Part shown: piece after piece, positions 6,023 through 27,231 of the stretch
Numbering within the stretch: position 1 is the first letter of the stretch
Layout: each line of letters begins with the position of its first letter
Source: Jaapia argillacea MUCL 33604
Lineage: Eukaryota; Basidiomycota; Agaricomycetes; Jaapiales; Jaapiaceae
DNA length: 64,000 nt
NCBI GenBank assembly: GCA_000697665.1
Contig: KL197722.1
Location: forward strand, 242,785-306,784
Direction: 5' to 3'
Translations under genes and position numbers: made by a program
Notes under the pieces: generated by a model
Seen by the model: the letters and a program-made list of their open reading frames with translations, nothing else
Databases searched by the model: none
Told to the model about the DNA's origin: nothing

Positions 6023-7170
6023 TCAACAAGTCGCATTGGAGCGAGATTGGGCCGGAACCGGGCCGGAAAGAGCGGGTGCGGATTTAGAGAGCGATAAAGA
6101 GGGAGAGGACAAAATCCTGCGGAGCCTCGAAACGGAGTCGACGTCGGTGGTTGCTTGCGTCGGCGTGGAAGTAGAAGGGGCAGGAACCGAAGAACTCAGT
6201 GGACGTGGAGGGCTAGAGGAGGACCGCTGCGTCGTCGATGTGGATTGGATAGGAGTTGTAGAATCCATCCCGGGCGAGGGACTCGTGTGGTGTCTCCTGG
6301 GCGATGGAGGGGCTCCCGGAGTTGCCTAGGGGCACAAAGGTGGTGAGACAAGAGGTCAAAATTCGTAATCGTATCCCAGAGGCTTACCCTCAGCTCCTTC
6401 CTAAATGCCGTATTGACCTTGTTCGACCAACTGTCCAATTTTCCCTTTGCCTTAGCATCCCCGAATGTCCTCATCAAGCAAGCACCGTGAACATGCCCCT
6501 GAACTCTCCCAAACTTTTTCGCGTCCCACTTTTTCATATTTTCCTCTCCAGCCACCTCCTTCCATAACCCGGCCAATTCCTCTTCCAGAACTAATACAAA
6601 CGTCATCTCATCGTCCTTCGCAAGCTGAACAATATTCTTCCAAATGATCCCCACGAACCACCAGCAGTTGACGGTCCACATATTGTAGATGCCAGCAATT
6701 TTACTGATGACATCCAGGAGAATAACGAGTTTGAGGAGAGGGATGTCATTACGAAGAAAGCCGACAGAAGCGACAGATTGTGATGGATGAGGCCCTGTTT
6801 TCAAAAGAGAGCCCCATCCGAACGCTTCTGCAAAAGTCACCTTGTCCTTGCACCGCGACTTTGCGTGCGGTCGATATAAGGTAAACCAGGTTGCCGCATC
6901 TCGTTCGATACGAAGGTAGGTGGGCTGCTCTAATTGGGGGCCCGCGATGGATACGATCAAGAATTCGTGTGATGGTAGGCCAGGTTCTTTCATCCACATC
7001 AGATCAGAGATATACATGAGGTCAACGTTGTCGGCCTTGGCAGCGTCGGACTTGGCCCACTCGATGAACTTCGAAAGTCTATTGGCCTTGGTATGAAGCC
7101 CGTATTGTTGGGCGGAAGGAAGTTCCGGGATTGTGGATACAGAAACGACATCGGGGGTTGGGGTAGTCAT
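6023..7170 (-). CDS. NCWWFV-motif protein, putative papain-like-fold domain
   Basis: Hypothetical protein of 361 residues from two exons, 7170-6388 and 6325-6023, joined across a GTAAGC...CCTAG intron (6387-6326) in phase. Residues about 25-225 form an ordered domain with GLPSHEFLIV (His68), YLRIERDA and YNMWTVNCWWFVG (Cys169). The last 100 residues are Ser/Thr/Pro-rich. The same domain, with the His and Cys at nearly the same spacing, forms the N-terminus of the chimera at 20485-22575. I do not know a named family. The His...YN-x(5)-NC-xx-F pattern resembles the permuted papain-like proteases and acyltransferases (PPPDE/DeSI, LRAT), so a Cys-His dyad is possible; that is inference. The start ATG at 7170 is the first in frame. 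Confidence 0.7.
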
Positions 7171-20484: not shown

Positions 20485-22575
20485 TCAAATAACAGGCTCC
20501 AAAAAACTCGCCAATGCCCACCCAATCTGCCCGCCATTGTCTCTCACGACCAGCAAGCAATCATCTCCATCATCCACATAGAGGGGCAAATTTCTATGAG
20601 ATAAAGGATGTCCCTCTTCGGAGAGAACATCCAATTTCTGGCCGAGAGAGAGATCGAAGAAGGGCAAAGAATCGTAGAAAATACCAGCCGGGGGTTGGCA
20701 TGGGTGGACGACTTGACATGTATAGAGCACTCGATTAAGCGCACGCCGCGATTTCTGAAGTTCAGGATCTCCATTGGGTGTTGTCGGGAGGGAAGGAGTT
20801 GACGAATGACTCGGAGACAGGATTACAGGAGGTGGTCTCATTGCTGGCATAGCAAAATGGCGATCAAGGCGGGATGGAGATGTGAATGAAGGTGTCCGAT
20901 CTCTCAACGGAAGAGGGTGTGGCGACGGCGAGGGTGGCCTAAGCGCCAAGCTGGAACCAGATGGATCGGATGGCTTCGTCGTATGACTCGTGGTAGTGGT
21001 CCGACTCCATTGGGCATCTAGCTCAGCGAAAGGAGACATAGCCTCAGTCACAATCCTCTTCGTCTCCATGTGAACTCCCTTCCGACGTTTCACAATCCCC
21101 AAGCTTGCAGTGATTTCATCAACTTGCACCCATCGATTCCACCACCTGGCAACAGTCTCAACCGAGTCCATTCGCTCTACGCCCCCAGGCCCAACCAACA
21201 GGCGCTCCCCTTCGATCCTAAGGGAATCCCAAAGATCTCGCCAGCTCCCGACGACACGTTTCCAAAAACCTCTCTGCAATTTTATGAAATCACACCAGAC
21301 GTATCTGACCCCTTTCTCCAATAATGCGATGTATTGAGGCAACTCTGCTACCAGCTGGCTCCGGAGTGTGATGTATGAGGTAGTCGATGGTAACGGTGCG
21401 AAAGACGGGAGGTATTTGCGGTTGACAGTGGCGTAGTGAGTTGATTTCGAAGACTGGAGGGAATTCAATAGTCCCAGAGGAGATGTCGCGCTCTCAGAAA
21501 GTCGAGCAAGCTGCAGAAACAGCCTCTTTTGCACATCAGTCTCCATGGCCTGACAGAATGACAACAACTCATCCCGAACAACTTCCAAGTAGGCATCGAA
21601 TGCCTCGCTTATAACTTCAGATTGACCATCCACACCACACACGCCAACCAACTTCCCGAAACAAATTGACCACGCCAACAGCCGCTCATAAAGCGTCCTG
21701 ACCGTCACTGCCAAGTCCCGAATACGTTCCTCCAAAGTGCGGATGAGTGCTTCTGTGCGTAGGAGGGTTTTTTCAAGAGAAGCGATGAAGGAGTCCTCGT
21801 CGATGGCATTCCTCAGTGTGAGTGGCCCAGACAAGCATTTGGCGTATGCGTTGTCTACTAAAGCTGACGACCGTTCCACCTCCCCCTTCGCTCCAATAGA
21901 TCCACGGATTCGACCGAGTAAACTGAGGTGTTGAAATTGTTGAAAATCTGCGAAATTCCCTGCGTTCCAGGTGTGGCCCCCACGAGACTGGTTCATCGGC
22001 CATGCTTCTTCCTTCCCTTCCGCCACGAAATAGAATTTCATGGAGTCGGAATTGACACAGCGAACGAGATTCCTCCACAGGCATCCCACGAACCACCAAC
22101 AATTGGTGGTCCAGATATTGTACGCGGTTACTCTGTCGGTGATGACTCGTAATAGAAGGGTGATATGCAGGACGCCGATGTCCTGGTTTTGAATGGTGAC
22201 ACGGGCGACGGTCTCGTCACGAGCGCCGAGGGTATCGCCGACTTTGTTGGCTATGATGACGGTATCCCTGGTAACAGTAGAATGTTTCGGGCCTATCAGA
22301 GATTTCCACGACTTCGTGTCTCGTTCGAGTCGAAGGCTAAGGTCGAATACACCTGAGAAGGTAACCACCAAGTACTCGTGAGAGGGTGTTCCAGGTTGTT
22401 TAACCCAGTGGATGCTGGAGATCCGTAGATCATCTACACTGTCTGACGAAGCCTCGGATGAGGTTGACCAGCGAATGAAGGTTTCAATGTCAACTTGACG
22501 AGGGAGTTTGTGTTGCCGTATAGAAGGAAGAAGGAAAACATCGACAGCTGTTGGCAAGCGCGCGGAGGACTCCAT
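20485..22575 (-). CDS. Chimeric protein: NCWWFV domain + BAR-like + SH3
   Basis: Uninterrupted frame of 696 residues from the ATG at 22575, which has a near-ideal context (ACCGCCATGG). Residues about 10-245 are the NCWWFV domain, with GTPSHEYLVV (His66), LRLERD and YNIWTTNCWWFVG (Cys159), paralogous to the gene at 6023-7170. Residues about 255-500 match the BAR-like helical region of the neighbouring RhoGEF (LLAWSICFGKLVGV, SEAFDAYLEVVRDEL, FWKRVVGSWRDLWDSL). A Ser/Pro linker follows. The last 84 residues are an SH3 domain (VLYTCQVVHPCQPP, LPLYVDDGDDCLLVV, GQIGWALASFL), about 58 of 84 identical to the neighbour by my count. There is no DH domain. The frame open to 22746 lacks an ATG upstream and contains a GTGAGC...TTCCAG intron (22644-22591), here taken as 5' UTR. 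A membrane-curvature adaptor with a new N-terminal domain is an inference. Confidence 0.82.
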   Translation of the reverse strand: MESSARLPTAVDVFLLPSIRQHKLPRQVDIETFIRWSTSSEASSDSVDDLRISSIHWVKQPGTPSHEYLVVTFSGVFDLSLRLERDTKSWKSLIGPKHSTVTRDTVIIANKVGDTLGARDETVARVTIQNQDIGVLHITLLLRVITDRVTAYNIWTTNCWWFVGCLWRNLVRCVNSDSMKFYFVAEGKEEAWPMNQSRGGHTWNAGNFADFQQFQHLSLLGRIRGSIGAKGEVERSSALVDNAYAKCLSGPLTLRNAIDEDSFIASLEKTLLRTEALIRTLEERIRDLAVTVRTLYERLLAWSICFGKLVGVCGVDGQSEVISEAFDAYLEVVRDELLSFCQAMETDVQKRLFLQLARLSESATSPLGLLNSLQSSKSTHYATVNRKYLPSFAPLPSTTSYITLRSQLVAELPQYIALLEKGVRYVWCDFIKLQRGFWKRVVGSWRDLWDSLRIEGERLLVGPGGVERMDSVETVARWWNRWVQVDEITASLGIVKRRKGVHMETKRIVTEAMSPFAELDAQWSRTTTTSHTTKPSDPSGSSLALRPPSPSPHPLPLRDRTPSFTSPSRLDRHFAMPAMRPPPVILSPSHSSTPSLPTTPNGDPELQKSRRALNRVLYTCQVVHPCQPPAGIFYDSLPFFDLSLGQKLDVLSEEGHPLSHRNLPLYVDDGDDCLLVVRDNGGQIGWALASFLEPVI

Positions 22576-23423
22576 GGAGGCGGTAGCTATCTGGAACATT
22601 GTCAGAGCAAGAAAGGAGAGAAAATAGAGACCACAATCGCTCACAGAGAGGACTGCCAGACTCCAGAGGTTAGTGTCTAGGTCGTGAAGGACGTAGGAGC
22701 ACGATTGCAGTGCACGCTGTGCAATGGGATTAGATTCCCTTCCCAAGCTTAAGCTCGACGGTATGAAGGCGTGAAGGCATGAGGCGACACCCTGGAATAG
22801 ACCATGCCTTAAAAGTTAACGATCTAATGATAAGATGGATACGTCGAGTTGAAGGGAATGTCGGCCATCTTGGCGCCTGCTGGGCTTCTGGCAGTCAAGG
22901 CAGTGGTCGAGGGTCCTACGGTAACGCAAGTGAATCAGTACACTTGACTTACTACCTGCGTCCCCGTCGAGTCCTTCCAAAGGAGCGAAGCCGACTAAAG
23001 AGGATTAAAGCGAGGCCCCGAAAATCGGAATACAGAGATGCACTTACCAGGGATCGCGTAGCAAAGTAACAAACATGCATTTCCATGGCCATGCGTGGCA
23101 CGCTTGCGAATTGTGGGCTGGGGATCCGAGCAGAGCCAGAGGTCGTGTTTAAAGATGCGAACATCCTCCAGTTACGTAGTGACTCTTTTGATCAAGGTAT
23201 TTCAACAGCGTACTTCGCAGCATCCAGATATCCTCTAAGTACATCTATAAAATTACAACGAGCACAGATATAGCACAACCAAACCGAGAACTAAATCCAA
23301 AGAATACATGGTATGATCCAAACAGATCCACAAAACAGATCACACACACAAATTAAAAAAGAAAAAGTCAATGGCAAACCGAAAGGCAAAAGTGAACTAA
23401 CGACCCAAGGGTCCGTTGAACGT
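22576..23423. other. Intergenic region between the chimera and the RhoGEF gene
   Basis: About 850 nt holding the promoter of the chimeric gene, a likely 5' UTR intron (22644-22591) and the 3' UTR of the RhoGEF gene. No coding sequence, tRNA or repeat was recognised. In particular, there is no remnant of a DH domain upstream of the chimera that I could see. Confidence 0.5.
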
Positions 23424-26400
23424 TCAATCAACAGGCATCAAAAAACTAGCCAACGCCCACCCAATCTGTCCATTATGATCTCTCACCAACAACAAACAAT
23501 CCTCTCCATCATCCACATACAACGGTAAATCCTGATGACTAGACGGGTGTCCAGCTTCGGTCAACACATCAAACTTCGCCCCCGGTCTCAGCGGGAAAAA
23601 CGGCAAAGAATGATACGAAACGTTCGAAGGAGGTTCACAAGGATGAACCACTCTACAAGCATAGAGCGCTCTACCAAGTGACCTACGTGGTCGGATAGGT
23701 TCCAAATCCCTCGTAGGCGTTCTCCGTGGCGAGGGAGTAGAGGAAGGAGTTGAAGAATGTGATTGAGCGAATGCAGCTGAAGGAGCGGAACGTAAACCAT
23801 TGTGACGTGATGAAGCATGCGAAGGTGTGGGTTCCTTCAACGTCGCAAATGATGAACTCCTCGACGAGACCGGCGGTGGTTGGTGTGACTTTGATATCGA
23901 TACGGGTGGTGGCGAAGGCGAACGTGGTCGGATTGTCGACGAACTAGATGACTCGGAGGCCTTCATCGTACTAGCCGTCCACCTCCTCTTGAAACTCGGC
24001 TTCCTCGAAGGCGTAGCCGCCCCCTTGCCATCACCACCACCCCTATCGTCGTCATACTGCGGTGGCGTCTGAGGCGCGCTCAGAGTCACAGTACTCCCAT
24101 TACTAACCGAACCCTTCCTCCTCCCATGCCCGTTCACCCTCCCACTAGAAGCGGGTACAGGCACCGACGCATTCCTAGTTGGAGTAGGAGGAGGAGGGTG
24201 TAACGAAGCCATGATATCCCCAACCTCATCCGCCAAAGTATAAGGAGGATATTGCAATCCAGCACTAGACCCACTCCTCCTCGACCTCCCACTCTTCCCA
24301 CTCTTAGCCGACTTGCCGGATTGTAGACTCTCCATACTCCTCCTCTTCTCAACCTGCATCGCCCTCCCACTCCCACCATCCCAATTCCCACTACCCCCAG
24401 GCGTCCTAGGTCTCCTCCTCCTCTCCTCTTTCATTTGAGTAGGTGGGTGGGGTTGCGAAGCTCCAGCCATAACAGCATAATAAGCATGCGCATAAGCCCT
24501 ATCGATCCCATCACCCATCACCTCCCCAACCTCCCTCAAATCCTCCTCATCAGAAAAACTCGCCCTATAAGCCGAAGGCGTCGGAGTAGGCGGGTGCGAG
24601 AGCGACAAGGGCGTAGGGTCCAAAGAAGCCAAGACGTTCGCAACGCTCCCATTCGCTCTCAACTTTTCCTTCTCCCTCTCTCTCATCGCCGACCTCCCAT
24701 CTCTATCCCTATCCCTCTCGCGATCTTTCTCTTTATCCCTCTCCCTAGGTAAAGGCGTCACAATCTCCAACCCATCCACCTCCGCACCAACCTCCCTCCA
24801 CCGATCCCACCACCTCCTAATAGTCTCCTCCGCACCCCCAGCAACTTCACCCGGCGCACCGCCCGGCCCAGGCCCACCATCCAACTCCTCTCCATCCATC
24901 TTCAACGCATCCCAAAGCTCTCCCCACCTCCCTCTCACCCCCTCCCAAAAACCACCTTGCCAACTCCCAAAAACCCTAACAACCCCTTTAACACCCCTCT
25001 CCAAACTCTCGAGATAAACCGGTAGTTCAACTGCTAGTTGACCACGGAGTGCGACGTATGATTGGGATGCTTCTAGTAGAGCTGGAGGAGGTCGGGAGGA
25101 AGGTGTGAATGAATGATGGAGGAGTGTTGAATGGAGTGGTTCGAGTGTATGCATAGCTTCCAATAACCGATACGGAGCCTTCATGCTCGAGACTAACCGA
25201 GAAAGAGCGATCAACAACCTCTTCTCAATAGCCGCTTCCAACTCATCACAAAGCACCAAAACACTCCTCCTTATAACACTCAAAAACGCATCAAAAGCTT
25301 CACTAGCACTCTCCCCTTCACCTTCGAACCCATCAGGCCCAACAACACCAATAACCTTCCCAAACCCAACAGACCAAACCAAAAGCTGGAAATGTAAAGC
25401 TTTGACGCTCGCTCCCCATTCTTTAGCTTGTTTGGCAAAAGTGTGGATGAAGATATCGGTTTCTCTCAGCCTCTTCTCTAACCGCGCGACCAACGCAGCT
25501 TCTTCATGAGCTTCTTCGTTACTCGGTAACCCAAGCGAAGAAACCTTCTTCGTAAAACTCTTCATCCTCCCCAATCTCACACTAGCAGCCACACCCAACC
25601 CACCACTACCCCCACCGCCACTAGTCCTCTTCTCCCCTTTCCTCTTCCCATCTTTCCCACCTCCCTCCTTCCCACCATTCAAAACATCCCTAACGACTTC
25701 CCACCTCCTCCTCCCCTCATTAACACCTCTCGCAACCTCCTCCATCCTCCCCCTAGCCTCTTTTAACCGCGCCTTATCTCCATGGTCTAATGGTGTTTCC
25801 TCGAAAATGGTGGAGAGGAGGAGAGGGTATTTGAGGAGACGTTGGACGGGTTTGATTAGGAGGGAAGGGAGGTCCCAGGAGTGGGTTAGGGCGGAGGTTA
25901 GTTGGACGGTTTTTTCGAGGTAGGTTTGGAGGGAGGGAGATGGAGGGGAGGTTAGGGAGGTTAGGTGGGAGAGGGCTGTTGGATGACGGGTTATGTATGT
26001 CTTGTATGGGGGTTCGAGTTTGGGGATCTGGGGGGGACGTCGATGGCAGGTTTGGTTAGTGGGCGTGATGGATTAGGGAAGAGAGCGATGAACGTACGAT
26101 TTCTAGGAATAGCAACCCAACATGATCCTCCCCTGTACCTCCTTCAATAACATCTCCGAGCGCCTCCTGTAACAAATCACAAAAAGCGTCGGAGAACTCT
26201 GCTAGTTCAGCGATGTTGCCAAAGATGATTTTCGCGTCCTCTTTTGTCATGGGTGAGGGGTGAGAGACTAGCGTCGCGGAACTTGCGGAACCGGATGAAG
26301 AGGTTGAGAGTGTGCGCGTTGAGGATGAGGACGATGAGGACGATGAGGAGGGTGGGGAGTTGTTGAAGGTTGTTTGATGGCCTGTGGGGGTGAGGGTGGG

Positions 26401-27231
26401 TTAGTATGGGGTATGTGATGGGGTTGATCGAGGTGGGCGCCTGTGTAGCGGGGATCATACAGAGTTTGACCGCCCACGTGTGATGGCCTATGAGATTGTA
26501 GCGCCCGTGGTGCTGGCCTTGTCGTCGATACGAGCGAGCAAACGAATGCGCCGGCGGAGTAGACGAGAATAAAATTGATGACTGTTGAAGGAATGCTCAC
26601 CTAAGGCCAAAGGTATATGGACATCTCGTATGAGAGCCAAATCCGATGCGTACGCCCTTTCAGAAGAAAGGAGTTCGAGCAAAGCGTGTGTCCTCTTGGA
26701 GGTGGTGCCAGAGCCGGCGGGAGTTACGATGGGAGCGGCTGTTTGCAATAAGGATTCTGTGGACTCTGTTGAATCATTGTCGACAGGTGAAAGTGGGAGA
26801 GGCGAGTCTGGAACGGGATCAGGTGGGAGGGGCAACGGTTTGAGGACATCGACGAGATGAGTCTGTATCTGTGGCGACTGAGCCTGTTGTGTGATGGAAC
26901 CGAGGAGGCCAGAGAGGGTGCCGAAAGATTTGGCATGTAGGAGAGGCATTTGGTGTTGAATTGGGGGTGGATTGACAGATGCAGCGCGAGGTCGCGGGGC
27001 GGGACGGAGAGGAGAACGAGGAGGAATTGTTGGCGGCGATGATGAGATAGCCGTGGTCGTGAATTCGTTATTCGTGAATATTGGGGGCAGAGCAGGGGGC
27101 AGCGCGAGGGGAGAGGAGTCTTGAGCGGTGGTGTAGCTTTCGACAGAGTCCTGTGGCGAGGGCACGTTGTCCACACCTGCTCCATCCGCCGCAAACACGC
27201 CTGAATAATTCTTCGCCTTCTTCTCCGTCAT
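23424..27231 (-). CDS. DH-BAR-SH3 guanine nucleotide exchange factor (Tuba-like)
   Basis: Rho-family GEF with the architecture of dynamin-binding protein/Tuba: DH, BAR-like and SH3. It probably activates Cdc42/Rho1 at curved membranes or septation sites. It starts at the ATG at 27231 with about 165 disordered Pro/Ser-rich residues. The DH domain begins at KRTHALLELLSSERAYASDL near 26680 and continues over introns through TKEDAKIIFGNIAELAEFSD. An intron (about 26097-26032) joins LLFLEI to IPKLEPPYKTY, and SLLIKPVQRLLKYPLLL marks the classic DH helix. The BAR-like region follows (LLVWSVGFGKVIGV, SEAFDAFLSVIR), then a basic, Ser/Pro-rich linker and a C-terminal SH3 ending GQIGWALASFLMPVD. Exon borders between 26600 and 26250 are uncertain. 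The last exon from about 26030 to 23424 has no intron. Confidence 0.87.

Follow-up and report, generated by a model that had tools for sequence, protein, structure and literature searches.

An NCWWF-type domain joined in one reading frame to the C-terminal half of a RhoGEF paralogue in Jaapia argillacea

The chimeric gene and its RhoGEF neighbour

The window analysed here, a stretch of 64,000 nucleotides from contig KL197722.1 of Jaapia argillacea MUCL 33604, carries on its minus strand a long open reading frame (hereafter, the chimera), a neighbouring three-exon RhoGEF gene (the neighbour GEF) and a second copy of the N-terminal domain of the chimera (the 6-kb copy). We call this domain the NCWWF domain. 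The features are as follows.

20485..22599, minus strand: coding frame of the chimera, 704 codons and a stop (696 codons from an alternative ATG at 22575)
21829..22599, minus strand: NCWWF-type N-terminal domain of the chimera, residues 1-257 (tblastn against own-genome copies, column conservation)
22378-22380 and 22099-22101, minus strand: codons of His74 and Cys167 of the chimera
21085..21825, minus strand: region of the chimera, residues 259-505, with homology to the part of the neighbour GEF that follows DH (38% identity)
20767..21084, minus strand: linker of the chimera, residues 506-611 (Ser/Pro-rich by eye, poorly conserved in the alignment)
20488..20766, minus strand: C-terminal domain common to the chimera and the GEF, residues 612-704 (62/93 identical)
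26601..27231, minus strand: exon 1 of the neighbour GEF, N-terminus and start of DH (spliced model)
26098..26381, minus strand: exon 2 of the neighbour GEF, DH (spliced model)
23424..26027, minus strand: exon 3 of the neighbour GEF, end of DH, post-DH region and C-terminal domain (spliced model, tblastn)
6388..7170, minus strand: domain exon of the 6-kb copy (3' end read by eye)

The frame of 696 codons described in an earlier note on this DNA is present from the ATG at 22575, and it extends to 704 codons from an upstream ATG. Over the same stretch, the other two frames of this strand contain 24 and 26 stops and the three frames of the opposite strand 22, 22 and 36. Since each of the other frames has 22 to 36 stops, an accidental open frame of 704 codons is very unlikely (chance at most 2e-10 at the stop densities of the other five frames). 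Residues 24-256 of the chimera aligned with the 6-kb copy (88/248 identical, 35%), residues 264-503 with the neighbour GEF (97/257, 38%) and residues 611-703 with the C-terminus of the neighbour GEF (62/93, 67%). The chimera does not have any Met from Met202 to Met352, so that there is no start near the junction for a separate C-terminal protein. At the level of the sequence, the NCWWF domain and the GEF-derived regions in one frame are a genuine fusion. The single-frame fusion claimed in the earlier note, between the NCWWF domain and the C-terminal half of a paralogue that contains DH, was upheld, with identities of 38% and 67% in the two shared regions.

A Pfam search with the chimera gave no family at E<=1, DH included, while the spliced three-exon neighbour gave RhoGEF/DH with an E value of 3.2e-30 (residues 184-408), in agreement with the previous description of the chimera as a protein without DH. 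No PH domain was matched in the first 728 residues of the neighbour GEF. By tblastn, the GEF portion matching the chimera was confined to the last GEF exon (exon 3), and the stretch between the two genes, searched for a DH remnant, had no match to GEF residues 1-430 at E<=10. Because the part common to the chimera and the GEF sits inside the last GEF exon, no later loss of DH, as the earlier note implied, is needed, and we infer that the chimera is explained by a partial copy of that exon.

The dS between the chimera and the GEF was about 1.65 in both shared regions, which is near saturation, but the dN was only 0.56 in the longer region (246 codons) and 0.26 in the shorter one (87 codons), indicating that the duplicate is old and has been kept by purifying selection. 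The fusion looks old. Its N-terminal domain retains 38 of the 39 columns that are conserved across the rest of the copies and is among the best four of 47 in this respect, although the copies were gathered with the chimera as the query and this rank therefore favours the chimera.

The two shared regions had previously been named BAR-like and SH3, with 58/84 identical residues counted in the latter. The homology itself stood (62/93), but the names found no support from sequence profiles. Pfam BAR had no match at E<=10 in the chimera or the neighbour GEF, the post-DH region of the chimera gave sub-threshold Pfam matches to unrelated families only (PP_kinase, 0.087; YopE_N, 0.18), and no match for this region was found among PDB sequences. 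A genome search with PF03114 had contigs 16, 19, 31 and 32 among the matches listed and none at the chimera/GEF locus. Likewise, Pfam SH3 had no match at E<=10 in the C-terminal domain, where one unrelated sub-threshold match was obtained (GAAD, 0.2), and this domain of the chimera and the GEF was absent from the PF00018 matches in the genome. When a profile of six own-genome SH3 domains was used with the filters off, the chimera/GEF frame was also absent among the matches listed, and the comparison of the C-terminal domain with PDB sequences gave a chance-like match to Raptor only (E 0.19). The BAR and SH3 identities are plausible from the DH-without-PH layout and from resemblance by eye.

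The NCWWF family in the genome

A genome search with the chimera detected at least 67 stretches at E<=1, including the chimera itself and two from the GEF; this number is a lower bound because 63 of the 92 candidates were scored. Realignment of the fetched loci gave 61 separate stretches including the chimera, at least 47 of which were near-complete. An in-frame stop was present in seven of the 47 near-complete copies, and these seven were left out of the alignment (A2, 40 rows). A scan for distant relatives found 19 stretches with a peptide pattern in the prokaryote collections and 131 in the viral ones, none of which was confirmed by tblastn. No family name was obtained over the cut-off in Pfam, NCBIfam, PHROGs, PADLOC or PDB; the consensus sequences of the family had no Pfam match, and the one that was also compared with PDB sequences, PHROGs and PADLOC had no match there either.

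The earlier note had placed a separate domain gene at 6023-7170 and regarded it as the donor of the N-terminal domain. A second copy does lie there, but it looks like a two-exon gene with a domain exon at about 6388-7170 (splice read by eye). As for the donor, this copy ranked 17th by score among 48 copies, the chimera itself counted, and the AU test rejected a tree that unites the chimera and the 6-kb copy in one clade (P = 0.00055), its log-likelihood being 50.8 lower. The sister of the 6-kb copy was C28_218914 (62% identity, support 100/100), and the copy closest to the chimera domain by identity was C37_214888 (41%). The position of the chimera in the tree was weak (97/75), next to a cluster whose members lie mostly on contig 4 and with an end branch of 0.87. 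The location of all three parts within 22 kb, to which attention had been drawn, is partly coincidence, given that the 6-kb copy was rejected as donor and that at least 47 near-complete copies were found in the genome. A cluster of six near-complete copies was found on contig 4 (948000-985000), and the copies with long extensions in this cluster share a W-S-G-P...YRIQ stretch at the C-terminus, which by eye resembles the start of a beta-trefoil.

At least 100 codons of open frame continue past the domain in 22 copies, the chimera counted. These C-terminal extensions fell into several groups without mutual similarity (blastp, 1e-3), and by eye they include coiled-coil-like, Ser/Pro-rich and long types, the last with four terminal hydrophobic segments (C12_129943), in addition to the GEF half. 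At the locus of this contig 12 copy (129500-134500), the extension comprises 500 residues in a single frame and ends in four strongly hydrophobic segments. In two paralogues, C26_465865 and C28_142107, the reading frame continues from the domain across a GTGAGT...AG intron of 49 bases into a P-loop (VLGPSGVGK), which is followed by a FIDTPP stretch.

L025 (contig 26), about 1503-2600: P-loop-joined paralogue
L050 (contig 28), about 807-1900: P-loop-joined paralogue

Judging from these motifs, this is probably a GTPase-like part of the same protein as the NCWWF domain, which makes the two paralogues probable domain-GTPase fusions. Three copies on contig 9 (L044, L037 and L038) have HEAT-repeat frames 3' on the same strand, recognized by Pfam in L044 and L037 (best E 1.9e-24) and by similarity of the frames in the third. 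The domain and these repeats do not share an open frame, and in L044, the copy that was read through, stops separate them. The HEAT/ARM repeats in the contig 9 arrays are very similar to each other.

Only one of the 55 listed NPHP3_N matches adjoins an NCWWF copy, and the next nearest is 40 kb away. A role of the NCWWF domain as a general NLR effector was rejected on the basis of this one adjacency in 55 matches. At the locus concerned (contig 52, 100000-104000), the NACHT/NPHP3_N gene appears to start about 110 bases after the NCWWF gene on the same strand, with a stop and a new ATG between the two. The NACHT gene appears to be separate from the NCWWF gene, although an intron may join them into a fusion. 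The 55 matches, all above the cut-off, are spread across many contigs, which points to a large NLR-type repertoire in this genome.

Conserved residues of the NCWWF domain and readings of the fusion

Among the near-complete copies, His74 was conserved in 47/47 and Cys167 in 46/47, and Trp65, Arg90, Arg93, Trp168 and Trp169 were invariant; one shorter copy has NGWWY. In permuted papain-like families His precedes Cys, and in the NCWWF domain, too, His stands before Cys, an order that is conserved. C97/PPPDE, C92 and LRAT are circularly permuted papain-like families according to PMC10318531.

Apart from Peptidase_C97, which was weakly matched by two of the 40 members (E<=5, best E 0.046), no Pfam family had a match in two or more members, and the best C97 score, 14 bits, lies far below the Pfam cut-off of 29.2. 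The only C97 gene of this fungus among the matches listed in the genome search encodes a DeSI protein. When the family profile was compared with this protein, joined in frame, the best stretch comprised only 11 columns, with Cys on Cys at its end; the score was reached by none of 100 shuffles and by two of 541 unrelated frames. The default realignment by hhalign to the DeSI protein, in a version that is partly mis-joined, scored under several of the shuffles. Neither of two DUF6540 relatives rose above the shuffles against the family profile. From these sequence comparisons, we give somewhat less than an even chance to the NCWWF domain being a papain-like thiol hydrolase.

Our leading reading, to which we assign a probability approaching one half, is that a His/Cys thiol hydrolase has been fused to, and is targeted by, the retained half of the GEF. 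The domain would then be a peptidase, a de-ubiquitin-like protease or an acyl-hydrolase, perhaps with a distantly related permuted papain fold of the PPPDE/C97 kind, and the GEF half would recruit the domain to wherever the parent GEF works, at the membrane or at sites of polarity. With no DH found in it, the chimera is not expected to work as an exchange factor of the conventional type, and it might act at these sites as a tethered enzyme or as a competitor. A serious contender, though one that we hold to be distinctly short of even, is that the fusion is real and the NCWWF domain serves for binding or as a scaffold, the protein being a DH-less dominant competitor of the neighbour GEF. The invariant Trp, Arg and His would then be structural, or Trp65, Arg90, Arg93 and Trp168-169 could form a binding surface. 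Consistent with this, no match exceeded the cut-off of any catalytically annotated family, the similarity to C97 was marginal, and half of the parent GEF has been kept without DH. However, the retention of His in 47/47 and of Cys in 46/47 copies despite low overall identity is what would be expected of an active site.

The remaining readings are less probable. In one of them, the NCWWF domain would be a hitherto undescribed enzyme module of fungi, present in dozens of copies and joined again and again to unrelated partners, and the duplicated piece of the cell's own polarity GEF in the chimera would serve as a bait or decoy. Among the partners would be a P-loop GTPase-like part, coiled coils, membrane segments, the half of the GEF and, probably, arrays of HEAT repeats, in the manner of a recognition repertoire, and the bait or decoy would let the module sense or act at the sites targeted by the GEF; we consider this unlikely. 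That an NCWWF gene and a GEF-half gene share a frame by chance, each with its own transcript or with an intron that has escaped notice, would fit the intron (by eye) or stop found soon after the domain in other copies, but 704 codons without a stop, the lack of Met between residues 202 and 352 and the coding constraint kept on both sides of the junction make this improbable. Finally, the combination of the NCWWF domain with a GEF half was seen once in the genome (63 of the 92 candidates scored), as a recent and non-functional product of recombination might be; with a dS of about 1.65, a dN of 0.26-0.56, a fully open frame and 38/39 conserved columns kept, we regard such an origin as highly improbable.

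The wider interest lies in the NCWWF family more than in one gene, as the family is unnamed in the libraries searched, modular and provided with near-invariant His and Cys residues. In the chimera, the domain has a partner whose biology is known in part, the RhoGEF half, and the gene thus offers a place to test the role of the domain.

Comparison with known systems

The string NCWWF was absent from the literature searched, and no title or abstract opening naming the NCWWF domain or the fusion was found among the papers listed on fungal NLR/PPPDE, BAR/RhoGEF and Gef1/BAR, nor among those listed on expansions in Agaricomycetes and on fusions/RhoGEF. Fission yeast Gef1 is a DH-BAR protein without a PH domain, and Tuba has a layout of DH, then a long region, then a C-terminal domain. 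Tuba, Fus2 and MsgA are DH-BAR proteins without a PH domain, yeast Fus2 is one without detectable exchange activity, and MsgA of Talaromyces marneffei still localises and complements without DH and does not without BAR, as described in PMC7840665. The neighbour GEF has a comparable layout, in which DH is followed by a long stretch and then by a C-terminal domain, with no PH match in the first 728 residues, and the chimera resembles these proteins in retaining the conserved post-DH regions. What sets the chimera apart is that DH is undetected in it and that it carries an unrelated N-terminal domain, and the BAR and SH3 identities of its other regions are unsupported by sequence. By analogy, MsgA without DH and Fus2 without detectable GEF activity may be precedents for a DH-less role of the chimera.

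The NCWWF domain shares with PPPDE/Peptidase_C97 (DeSI) the placement of His before Cys, a Y-x-[LVI]-x-x-x-NC-x-x-F motif recognized by eye and the marginal profile signals, but differs in scoring below the Pfam cut-off, in a longer His-Cys spacing and in the invariant Trp-Trp and Arg. In the DUF6540 pieces of the same genome, too, His-Trp comes early and a Cys motif late, as judged by eye, although neither DUF6540 nor LRAT-like families were among those matched by any of the 40 NCWWF members.

Of the 55 NPHP3_N matches, a single one has an NCWWF copy less than 40 kb away, in what is seemingly a separate gene, and in this the NCWWF family is unlike the N-terminal effector domains of fungal NLRs. 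It is like them, as PMC9815663 describes these proteins, in having many copies that combine one N-terminal domain with varied C-termini. The chimera combines domains in an uncommon way while falling within kinds of proteins that are already known.
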